This document shows, piece after piece, positions 1,105 to 41,525 of a stretch of 64,000 nt of DNA. The position numbers and the translations under genes are program-made. Source of the DNA: an uncultured Pelagimonas sp. GTDB taxonomy: Bacteria; Pseudomonadota; Alphaproteobacteria; Rhodobacterales; Rhodobacteraceae. Location: positions 1 through 64,000 of the forward strand of contig NZ_CANMKO010000006.1 of NCBI RefSeq assembly GCF_947498515.1, written 5' to 3'. Position 1 is the stretch's first letter, and the number at the start of each line of letters is the position of its first letter. The notes under the pieces were generated by a model. The model was not told the DNA's origin. It saw nothing but the letters and a program-made list of their open reading frames with translations, and made no database searches.

Positions 1105-2472
1105 ATGTTAGCAACCCAAACGATAGCCAAACCCGTGCCGCCTCGGGTGCCTCTGGTCACCCAACCCATGGGGATCTGGAAAAGCCTGCAAACCTCGCGG
1201 CGCAACGTTCTGGCAATCATCCCGGACATCGCCACGCGCCAACCCATGGTCTCTGGCAAGACCGGGAAACGCTGGCACATGGTAACGGACCCAACCGCCA
1301 ACCGGCGGATATTGCTAGAAAACTTGGACAATTACCCGAAATCCATGGTGACCAAGAACCTGTTGCGCCCTGCCATTGGTGAATCGCTGTTTATCGCCGA
1401 AGGGGCACATTGGCGCTGGCAACGCCGCGCCGCCGCCCCCGCCTTTTCGCATCGCAATGTCATGAACCTTGCGCCAATCATGAGCGCCGCCGCGCAGCGT
1501 TCGGCCGAGCGAATCCATGACGCCGGGCCAAGGGCGATCAACTTTCTCGACGAAATGGTGTCTCTTACCTTTGATGTGATTTCAGATGTGACATTTTCCG
1601 GCGACGAAGGGTTTGACCGAAACTCAGTCCACACCGCCATCGACGCCTATATTTCCGAGGCCGGAAAACTATCGCTCTTCGACATTCTCGGCTTTCCCGA
1701 TTGGGTGCCACGCCCGGGCCGCATGTTTTCAGCGGGCGGTGTCTTGCAGATGAAAAAGGTCGCCGATCACGCCATCGAAGAACGCTCCAAACGCGATGTG
1801 TCTGGTGTGCCCGACCTGCTTGACCTGCTTTTGGCAGGCGAAGACCCTGAAACCCTGCGAAAGATGAACACAGCCGAGCTTCGGGATAATCTTCTGACCT
1901 TTATTGTCGCCGGGCACGAGACCACCGCACTGACGCTGGCATGGTCGCTTTATCTGTTGGCCTTTGATCCGGAGGTGCAAGAGCGCGCGCGCGCCGAAGT
2001 GTTGGCCGTTCTGGATGGCGACACCGCAACCGGCGAGGACGTCGCCAAGCTCCCCTTCATTCGTCAAATCGTTGACGAGGCGCTACGCCTATACCCTCCG
2101 GCGGGAATGGTGTCGCGCACGGCTTTGGCCAAAGACGAACTCTGTGGGCGGCAAATCTTGCCCGGCGATACGGTGATTTTGCCGATCTACGCCCTGCACC
2201 GGCATCACATGCTCTGGGACGATCCGGATCAGTTCAATCCTGATCGCTGGGCGGCGGGGAAACCCGACAGGTACAGCTATCTGCCCTTCGGTGATGGGCC
2301 ACGCATTTGCATCGGATCGTCTTTCGCAATCCAAGAAGCGGTGATTGTCCTCGCCACCTTGCTGGCGCGATTCCGGTTTAGCACCGTAGCAGGCAAGGTC
2401 CCCGATCCGGTGATGATCATCACGTTGCGGCCGCAAGGCGGTGTCTGGCTTGAGGCGGAACCTATTAACTGA
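1105..2472 (+). CDS. Cytochrome P450
   Basis: Heme-thiolate monooxygenase of 455 residues. Visible: I-helix oxygen-binding motif AGHETT (269-274), K-helix ExxR (E325-R328 in EALR), and heme loop FGDGPRICIG with the axial Cys402. There is no N-terminal membrane anchor, so it should be a soluble class I bacterial enzyme needing a ferredoxin and reductase, neither of which is adjacent. The start at 1105 is chosen because it follows GGTGGAG and begins the conserved fold; the frame stays open further upstream but overlaps the lipoprotein gene. Substrate cannot be read from context. A pair of palindromes follows the stop codon. Confidence 0.95.
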   Translation: MLATQTIAKPVPPRVPLVTQPMGIWKSLQTSRRNVLAIIPDIATRQPMVSGKTGKRWHMVTDPTANRRILLENLDNYPKSMVTKNLLRPAIGESLFIAEGAHWRWQRRAAAPAFSHRNVMNLAPIMSAAAQRSAERIHDAGPRAINFLDEMVSLTFDVISDVTFSGDEGFDRNSVHTAIDAYISEAGKLSLFDILGFPDWVPRPGRMFSAGGVLQMKKVADHAIEERSKRDVSGVPDLLDLLLAGEDPETLRKMNTAELRDNLLTFIVAGHETTALTLAWSLYLLAFDPEVQERARAEVLAVLDGDTATGEDVAKLPFIRQIVDEALRLYPPAGMVSRTALAKDELCGRQILPGDTVILPIYALHRHHMLWDDPDQFNPDRWAAGKPDRYSYLPFGDGPRICIGSSFAIQEAVIVLATLLARFRFSTVAGKVPDPVMIITLRPQGGVWLEAEPIN

Positions 2473-2502: not shown

Positions 2503-2545
2503 CAAATTCCTTGCAAGGAATTTGCAAATCCCGTGCACGGGATTT
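2503..2545. repeat. Two adjacent perfect palindromes
   Basis: AAATTCCTTGCAAGGAATTT (2504-2523; the symmetry extends one base each side to 2503-2524) is followed one base later by AAATCCCGTGCACGGGATTT (2526-2545). Each is its own exact reverse complement, and the two share the AAAT...ATTT frame. They sit 30 bases after the P450 stop, between two convergent genes, so they could act as a bidirectional terminator, a REP/BIME-like repeat, or protein-binding sites. There is no U-tract, which argues against a simple intrinsic terminator. Confidence 0.85.
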
Positions 2546-2594
2546 ACCACCGCTTGCCACTCATAGATACATTTCCAAAAACCGAAACGCGATT

Positions 2595-2712
2595 TCCCCC
2601 GGACATTCCGCCGCTAGTCGCGGTTCGCTCCTGCCCAAAGGGCCGGGGCTCCGCCCTTCCAGGAGCCGCGATGTCCCCCGGACATCCCGCCGCTAGTCGC
2701 GGTTCGCTCCTG
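2595..2712. repeat. 39-bp direct repeat duplicating the end of the adenosyltransferase gene
   Basis: 2595-2633 and 2674-2712 are 39-base direct copies that differ at one position (ATTCC versus ATCCC). The right copy carries the last codons and the stop of the adenosyltransferase gene; the left copy lies just downstream in the intergenic space. Between them is a GC-rich stretch including GGCCGGGGCTCCGCCC. This looks like a local duplication or an inserted repeat unit that now supplies the gene's C-terminus. Confidence 0.8.
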
Positions 2713-3268
2713 GAACCCACAACACATCTTCTCGACCGTTGTCATTGGCGATTCGCGCTGCTGCAAAGAACCAATCCGACAGCCGGTTCAAATACTTAAC
2801 CGCCGCCGGATTCACCGTTTCAACCGCCGCCAAGGCCACAGCCAAACGCTCAGCCCGGCGTGCAACCGTTCGGCATTGGTGCAGATTGGCCGACAGGGCG
2901 CTACCACCGGGTAGGATAAAACTACGCAGCGGTTCCAACACAGCCGTCATAGCGTCGATCTCGGTTTCCAACCGATCGACCTGCGCCTGTACCATCCGCA
3001 ACGGCGGGTACTCTGCCTCGTCGTCCTTATCCATATCCGGCTGGCACATGTCTGCGCCAAGATCGAAGAGATCGTTCTGAATACGGCTTAGCTGCGCGTC
3101 CATCTCGCCACCTGCATGCAACCGCGCCAGTCCGACAATCGCGTTTAGCTCATCCGATGTGCCATAGGCCTCAACCCGCGCGTCATATTTCGCCACGCGC
3201 GCGCCATTGCCCAGCGCCGTATCGCCCTTATCACCCGTGCGGGTGTAGAGTTTGTTCAACACAACCAT
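2693..3268 (-). CDS. PduO-type cob(I)yrinic acid a,c-diamide adenosyltransferase
   Basis: Transfers the 5'-deoxyadenosyl group of ATP to cob(I)alamin, giving coenzyme B12. The protein has 191 residues. The N-terminal ATP-binding signature LYTRTGDKGDTAL is clear, as are YGTSDELNA and the C-terminal RRAERL and YLNRLSDWFF blocks of the PduO/MMAB family. The start at 3268 was chosen because the family begins a few residues ahead of LYTRTGDKG. It lies one base after the stop of the twin-helix gene in what looks like an SDR / twin-helix / adenosyltransferase operon. Its last codons lie inside a direct repeat. Confidence 0.95.
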   Translation of the reverse strand: MVVLNKLYTRTGDKGDTALGNGARVAKYDARVEAYGTSDELNAIVGLARLHAGGEMDAQLSRIQNDLFDLGADMCQPDMDKDDEAEYPPLRMVQAQVDRLETEIDAMTAVLEPLRSFILPGGSALSANLHQCRTVARRAERLAVALAAVETVNPAAVKYLNRLSDWFFAAARIANDNGREDVLWVPGANRD

Positions 3269-10325: not shown

Positions 10326-10341
10326 GTTGACAGCTGTCAAC
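10326..10341. promoter_or_regulatory. Perfect 16-bp palindrome upstream of etfB
   Basis: GTTGACAGCTGTCAAC is its own reverse complement and lies about 230 bases before etfB in a 292-base gene-free interval. Its length and symmetry suit a dimeric repressor or activator. It could instead belong to the 3' end of the protease transcript, but no U-tract follows. Confidence 0.6.
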
Positions 10342-41509: not shown

Positions 41510-41525
41510 GGTATAACGTTATACC
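41510..41525. promoter_or_regulatory. LacI-type operator in the sugar operon promoter
   Basis: GGTATAACGTTATACC is a perfect 16-bp palindrome with the central CG typical of LacI-family sites. On the reverse strand a -35-like TTGACA (41529-41534) lies directly upstream of it, so bound repressor would block transcription of the binding-protein gene. It lies between the divergent operon and its LacI gene. Confidence 0.85.

Follow-up and report, generated by a model that had tools for sequence, protein, structure and literature searches.

What are two perfect palindromes that stand in direct tandem 30 nt behind the stop codon of a cytochrome P450-type gene, and what keeps them there? In the window, by which we mean the whole 64-kb stretch of DNA analysed here, the two dyads pointed out in the initial annotation are real: one of 22 bp (2503–2524) is followed, with a period of 22, by one of 20 bp (2526–2545) with a different stem. 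Set in the same 22-bp frame, the second unit spans 2525–2546, and the C and A at its ends are unpaired. The features of this neighbourhood are as follows:

1168–2472, plus strand: cytochrome P450-type gene (best NCBIfam matches below the curated cut-offs)
2503–2524, no strand assigned: hairpin 1, a perfect 22-bp palindrome with a 9-bp stem and a TGCA loop on either strand, CAAATTCCTTGCAAGGAATTTG
2525–2546, no strand assigned: hairpin 2, a 22-nt unit, perfect over 2526–2545 (AAATCCCGTGCACGGGATTT), with a stem unlike that of hairpin 1
2693–3268, minus strand: PduO-type cob(I)yrinic acid a,c-diamide adenosyltransferase gene (TIGR00636, above cut-off)

The PduO-type gene is convergent with the P450 gene and separated from the element by 146 nt; the P450 protein is 87% identical to that of P. 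varians and 83% to that of P. phthalicica. That the dyads are no product of chance, as had been argued from two perfect dyads lying side by side, is borne out by their absence from 100 dinucleotide shuffles of the window. Each palindrome pattern is found once in the 64 kb even with 3 mismatches allowed, and among the four perfect palindromes of at least 16 bp these two alone reach 20 bp. The other two, at 10326–10341 (GTTGACAGCTGTCAAC) and 41510–41525 (GGTATAACGTTATACC), are perfect over 16 bp and are possible operators. Positions 2580–2700, close to the 3' end of PduO, carry another kind of near-tandem repeat, GC-rich and of the GGACATCCCGCCGCTAGTCGCGGTTCGC... type; repeats of this type are also present behind the P450 gene in L086, L088, L107, L118 and L128, with longer arrays in several.

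A dispersed twin-hairpin repeat

In G000, the genome of the window (4.63 Mb), a loose pattern, AAATYCCNTGCANGGRATTT, matched 78 places with up to 3 mismatches, and the same pattern read backwards as a control matched none in the whole genome. Two different tandem hairpins were recognised by eye in 16 of the first 18 loci, which had been chosen by the sequence of one member. A covariance model, R1, built from 13 pairs that contain an AAATTCC-type hairpin and prone to miss pairs of other types, picked up in G000 a minimum of 51 full pairs, along with some 16 weaker places that are single or partial; these come from 131 strand matches at E <=1 and form a lower bound, 150 of 1877 candidates having been scored, and 2 weak places of the 67 were left out of the locus set. 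In G001, taken as Pelagimonas phthalicica DSM 26923, whose record NZ_SOAP01000004.1 carries an element, R1 returned 66 places (128 strand matches, E <=0.01), 60 of which were taken for analysis. The initial annotation had named a lone copy in the genome, with no conservation in relatives, as the outcome that would refute its reading. The copy is not alone, and with elements masked for the comparison, the corresponding gene junction in G001 also carries an element for 36 of the 51 pairs in G000, L060 being a further shared site. Window 2503–2546 is one copy of a dispersed twin-hairpin repeat that consists of two abutting palindromes of about 22 nt and is present in numerous marine bacteria.

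The repeat unit can be written as CAAnnnnnn-TnnA-nnnnnnTTG, twice. Hairpins are mostly 22 nt long, with some of 20–24 nt, and have 9-bp stems and loops that are mostly T..A; units of 20–24 nt with non-palindromic loops also exist. Near constant are solely the AA..TT close to the unit ends and the T..A at the loop edges. At some loci the array runs to three or four hairpins, none identical to another (L088:2362-2453, L096:2323-2392 and L082:2383-2497), and the flanks of L275 and L276 suggest the same. A scan for tandem hairpins that uses no sequence model (arms >=8, gap <=4), run over 80 P450 loci with 578,649 bases, gave 9 tandem pairs in six loci (L080, L082, L088, L090, L096 and L140). All nine are no more than 200 nt from the end of the P450 gene, with none elsewhere and none in one letter shuffle; by the same scan, tandem hairpins are absent from the P450 end in 74 of the 80 related loci, including that of P. 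varians.

Kept pairing, changing letters and two unlike halves

Pairing in the stems is nearly complete. The 198 pair entries, drawn from 29 genomes of Rhodobacteraceae (197 distinct places, L168 and L242 being the same one; single-genome loci are each genome's best match, and L163 and L178, with the element off-centre, were omitted), comprise 3168 stem positions, of which 3152 are Watson-Crick, the others being 6 G-T, 5 A-C and 5 of other kinds. The letters themselves are replaced in pairs: alignment A2 has 41 cells in which both sides differ, where shuffles give 10.6 and none of 500 reaches the observed number, and alignment A3, comprising 27 of the 198 entries picked for diversity, has 123 such changes against 34.3. 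At sites shared by G000 and G001, 72 of the 80 changed stem positions show a pair replaced by a pair, and 30 of 72 stems are identical between the two genomes. At one orthologous site (L045 in G000, L226 in G001) the same two stems occur in swapped order, which, since the stems are palindromes, equals an inversion of the 44-bp core.

G-T mismatches are as rare as A-C mismatches. This parity would fit a constraint that acts on the DNA or on both strands, or the restoration of perfect pairing in one step, as by template switching. At co-directional sites, 4 G-T stand against 1 A-C in 928 cells; G-U is not in clear excess there, and this counts against a function of the RNA from one strand.

The persistence of sites extends to other genera. 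Genes that end at an element recur between genomes in 49 protein pairs (>=50% identity, G000–G001 comparisons excluded), of which 10 link G002, a genome of the same genus, with G000 or G001, 2 reflect the duplicate locus and 37 are between genera. At the fabD-fabG junction, twin hairpins with differing stems were read by eye in 9 of 26 readable genomes (G000, G001, G002, G191, G004, G007, G043, G204 and G155); the sample was of 30 hand-picked genomes, many of them chosen for R1 matches, and the junction was unreadable in 3 more. Just 4 of these nine have a perfect palindrome of at least 14 bp at the junction.

In none of the pairs read are the two hairpins the same. Identical 8-bp stems occur in none of the 51 pairs of G000, where re-pairing the same hairpins leads one to expect 5.4 (P 0.00075), and in none of the 60 pairs of G001, with 12.6 expected and no case as low among 20,000 shuffles. 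The same holds for 66 pairs from seven other genomes, where 9.5 identical ones would be expected, and for 21 single-locus entries, giving 0 of 87 outside G000 and G001. Two identical tandem palindromes amount to one 44-bp palindrome, which would collapse into a single 20-bp hairpin, and predicted folding reflects this. Among pairs whose hairpins are both 22 nt long (45 of 51 in G000 and 57 of 60 in G001), the 44-mers taken as RNA favour the two-hairpin fold in 83 of the 90 strands from G000 and 105 of the 114 from G001, or 188 of 204 together; once the halves are made identical, this fold wins in none of the 90 and in one of the 114. Random non-identical re-pairings already form two hairpins in 0.81 (G000) and 0.86 (G001) of strands, against 0.92 and 0.92 for the natural pairs, so that little extra selection is visible beyond non-identity. 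A rule that one hairpin closes with G and the other does not was considered and set aside as mostly a consequence of non-identity (conditional P 0.045 and 0.099).

In longer sequences, both hairpins are present at minimum energy in 5 of 7 element folds; the minus strand of the window and L031 adopt another minimum-energy fold, and L040 another centroid. For the fabD-fabG spacers the minimum-energy fold contains both hairpins in 3 of 7 (G191, G155 and G204), that of G155 being no more stable than its shuffles (53 of 200); G007 has both in the centroid alone, and G000, G002 and G004 in neither fold. An outer third stem, which would make a three-way junction, had been hinted at by single folds and by a GCGCnCC/GGnGCGC bias in the flanks. 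It was rejected, as an element's own flanks pair like swapped ones (complementarity 5.20 against 5.19 in G000 and 5.44 against 5.33 in G001).

Gene ends, insertion and a possible barrier in mRNA

Of the 111 pairs in G000 and G001, 108 lie behind a gene, with a median of 21 nt from stop codon to element (quartiles 11, 21 and 39); these placements follow our own gene caller and count orthologous sites of the two genomes twice. The expectation that copies would sit as pairs between convergent genes holds for 50 of the 111, whereas co-directional neighbours are about as frequent (58); 2 are divergent and L058 falls in no class. The two divergent cases are a single site, L037/L185, with identical stems in both Pelagimonas genomes, and perhaps lie behind an uncalled small gene or RNA. 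For the 58 co-directional elements the next start codon is at a median of 58 nt; it lies 21–34 nt away in 15 of them and less than 21 nt away in 4, where the gene calls touch or overlap the element. A crude motif test found a Shine-Dalgarno-like stretch in 10 of 12 inspected sites, most of them short-distance ones. The gene pairs that flank such elements include:

fabD/fabG: next start 34 nt from the element; both above NCBIfam cut-offs, with a Shine-Dalgarno-like stretch
Polyamine ABC transporter ATPase/permease: 29 nt; ATPase (TIGR01187) above cut-off, PotH-like permease below cut-off
PdxA/RrnaAD: 25 nt to the next start (Pfam)
MacB/FtsX permease and ABC ATPase (Pfam)
NMT1-like protein and ABC ATPase (Pfam)
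Acyl-CoA dehydrogenase and enoyl-CoA hydratase (Pfam)
Two GNAT genes (Pfam)

Just upstream of the element in another locus (L038:1032-1469) there is a match resembling the cspA thermoregulator (RF01766), at 63.2 bits against a cut-off of 78 bits.

The pair of GNAT genes also offers a view of an empty site. At L029, 92 bp of G000 are missing in G001, where the GNAT stop and start overlap in CATGA, and the site is empty in G002 too; the G000 insert is bordered by CATGA at either end, which preserves the stop and the start, and this may be a 5-bp target duplication. Conversely, 64 bp present in G001 at L196 are missing in G000 and in G002, with no target duplication seen at this second of the two empty sites examined. 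The extra 92 and 64 bp imply an inserted unit longer than 44 bp. In G209, 5 of the 13 pairs taken (L245–L249) share an identical core in either order within flanks that are unrelated by eye. The empty sites and the dispersed identical cores together indicate spread by insertion. A plasmid or phage origin was considered and dropped, the window 44-mer having no match in plasmid and phage collections.

We propose, with moderate confidence and from sequence comparison, that this is an insertion-derived REP/BIME-like element whose two hairpins would form a barrier between cistrons and at the ends of mRNAs. A short unit would insert at new gene ends and then be kept. In RNA, the two short hairpins side by side could block 3'-5' exonucleases, set the stability of the upstream cistron and possibly slow the polymerase; between convergent genes, the barrier would be usable on both strands. 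A long hairpin is an RNase III-type substrate, and a long DNA palindrome is unstable. The halves would have to differ, as identical ones would either form one 20-bp hairpin or disappear through slippage. Template switching during replication may rebuild a perfect stem in a single event; this would account for the double changes and for G-U intermediates being almost absent. If such switching acts between the halves of a pair, it should yield identical pairs, and their absence would then point to removal by selection or by instability. Somewhat more tentatively, we suggest that the element may be inherited and selected as a shape rather than as a sequence, its letters being replaced by paired changes (probably through template switching) at gene ends that stay fixed across genera, with hairpins that are never identical and so are unable to merge.

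The principal alternative, which we regard as rather unlikely, is a purely selfish repeat of the MITE or REPIN kind, found at gene ends as the places of least harm, with pairing that would be needed solely for a transposase to recognise the single-stranded hairpin DNA, and with no function for the host. The insertion evidence just described would suit it, as would the equal rarity of G-T and A-C, which points to DNA, and a patchy distribution: in the family sample of 295 genomes, with no more than 21 candidates scored in each, R1 matches 34 and R2 57, and an R1 search of 385 genomes in the class sample matched G000 itself alone. The initial annotation had advised looking for a RAYT gene, and here the sequence speaks against mobilisation of that type: PF01797 (Y1_Tnp) has no match in G000 at E 0.001, the control being positive in 5 of 14 named genomes, and a RAYT-mobilised REP was rejected on this ground. 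Further, sites persist between species and, at fabD-fabG and other shared gene ends, between genera, their letters replaced but their stems still perfect; selfish copies in decay would lose such pairing unless template switching alone maintains it.

Less probable still is a bidirectional terminator, in which two adjacent hairpins without a U-tract would end convergent transcripts in the manner of a hairpin cluster. Adjacent hairpins have reportedly been proposed elsewhere as intrinsic terminators of this sort, and the convergent elements, which lie behind stop codons and are symmetric on both strands, have a suitable position; also, among 17 related P450 ends, several without twin hairpins have another hairpin behind the stop (by eye). 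The initial annotation was right that there is no U-tract, none of the 222 outer sides of the 111 pairs having a T-run within 12 nt of the stems, and this weighs against termination. So do the 15 operon sites with the next start at 21–34 nt, where little room is left for a promoter and the polymerase should read through; a full terminator between fabD and fabG would cut off fabG. On the idea that the element takes the place of canonical terminators, the counts point neither way: such terminators accompany 5 of 89 convergent gene ends near elements against 3 of 16 other convergent ends, and 6 of 56 co-directional ends near elements against 3 of 49 others. A structural or protein-binding site in the DNA, such as a cruciform or a supercoil or nucleoid marker at gene ends, would account for the perfect dyads, the 22-bp period of about two helical turns and the both-strand constraint, but is improbable, because arms that vary freely while pairing is kept, units of 20–24 nt and non-palindromic loops are unlike a fixed dimer site, and the protein-binding array suggested in the initial annotation is unsupported on the same ground.

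The twin hairpins offer an extensive natural set: several genera have dozens per genome, many of them at orthologous sites, and across the set the stems stay paired while their sequence is free to vary. This set bears on one-step compensatory change by template switching and on the role of intercistronic hairpins in operons, and the non-identity rule gives a sharp and simple prediction for RNA folding, RNase III cleavage or palindrome stability.

Relation to known repeats and hairpin systems

Clustered-hairpin terminators go by the name 'U-shaped'. The twin hairpins resemble them as adjacent hairpins behind stop codons from which the U-tract is absent; they differ in lying often inside operons and in being a repeat family with a non-identity rule. 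Small mobile repeats of the MITE-like kind include Correia/NEMIS, ERIC and RPE, and these too are short hairpin-forming insertions between genes. The twin hairpin, in contrast, shows no clear constant terminal inverted repeats, its flank motif being no more than a bias in the position profile of 111 elements, and has the one possible 5-bp target duplication. Among RNA families, a search of the window with Rfam 15 returned tRNA alone at the gathering threshold, and at E <=1 no credible match lay on the element in 18 loci, a mir-23 match (E 0.3, half the cut-off) overlapping that of L170. The open-licence PMC literature, searched with an exact 20-letter word and with keywords, yielded studies of REPs, MITEs and hairpin terminators but no description of the element.

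The closest known kind is the dispersed BIME/REP-like unit. REP and BIME elements occur as pairs, 3' of genes and within operons. Like those of E. coli and Pseudomonas, the twin hairpin is short, extragenic, palindromic and present in many copies per genome. One account gives proposed roles for REP elements in mRNA stabilisation, termination and supercoiling, and states that REPs bear a GTAG or CGTC tag and that GTAG REPs associate with RAYT (PMC3733652). Neither tag has a conserved position in the profile of our 111 elements: in their 10-nt flank pairs, counting each motif once per element, GTAG/CTAC occurs in 4 (2+2) and CGTC/GACG in 17 (12+5). Hence the BIME/REP-like unit offered in the initial annotation survives in part, as many extragenic paired copies, often between convergent genes, and fails on the tag and on the RAYT or other Y1_Tnp transposase. 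The twin hairpin differs from REP/BIME also in that its palindromes are perfect, its tandem pair is non-identical and its arm sequence is not conserved.

For the mode of change, the nearest parallel is with RNA hairpins, for which PMC8794818 describes template switching as able to create and maintain hairpins. Multibase compensatory changes with stems that stay perfect are common to both; that system, as described there, concerns RNA genes, whereas the twin hairpin is a dispersed intergenic bacterial repeat in which template switching would be the probable agent. What is new relative to all of these is the non-identity rule, together with the conservation of shape without that of sequence.
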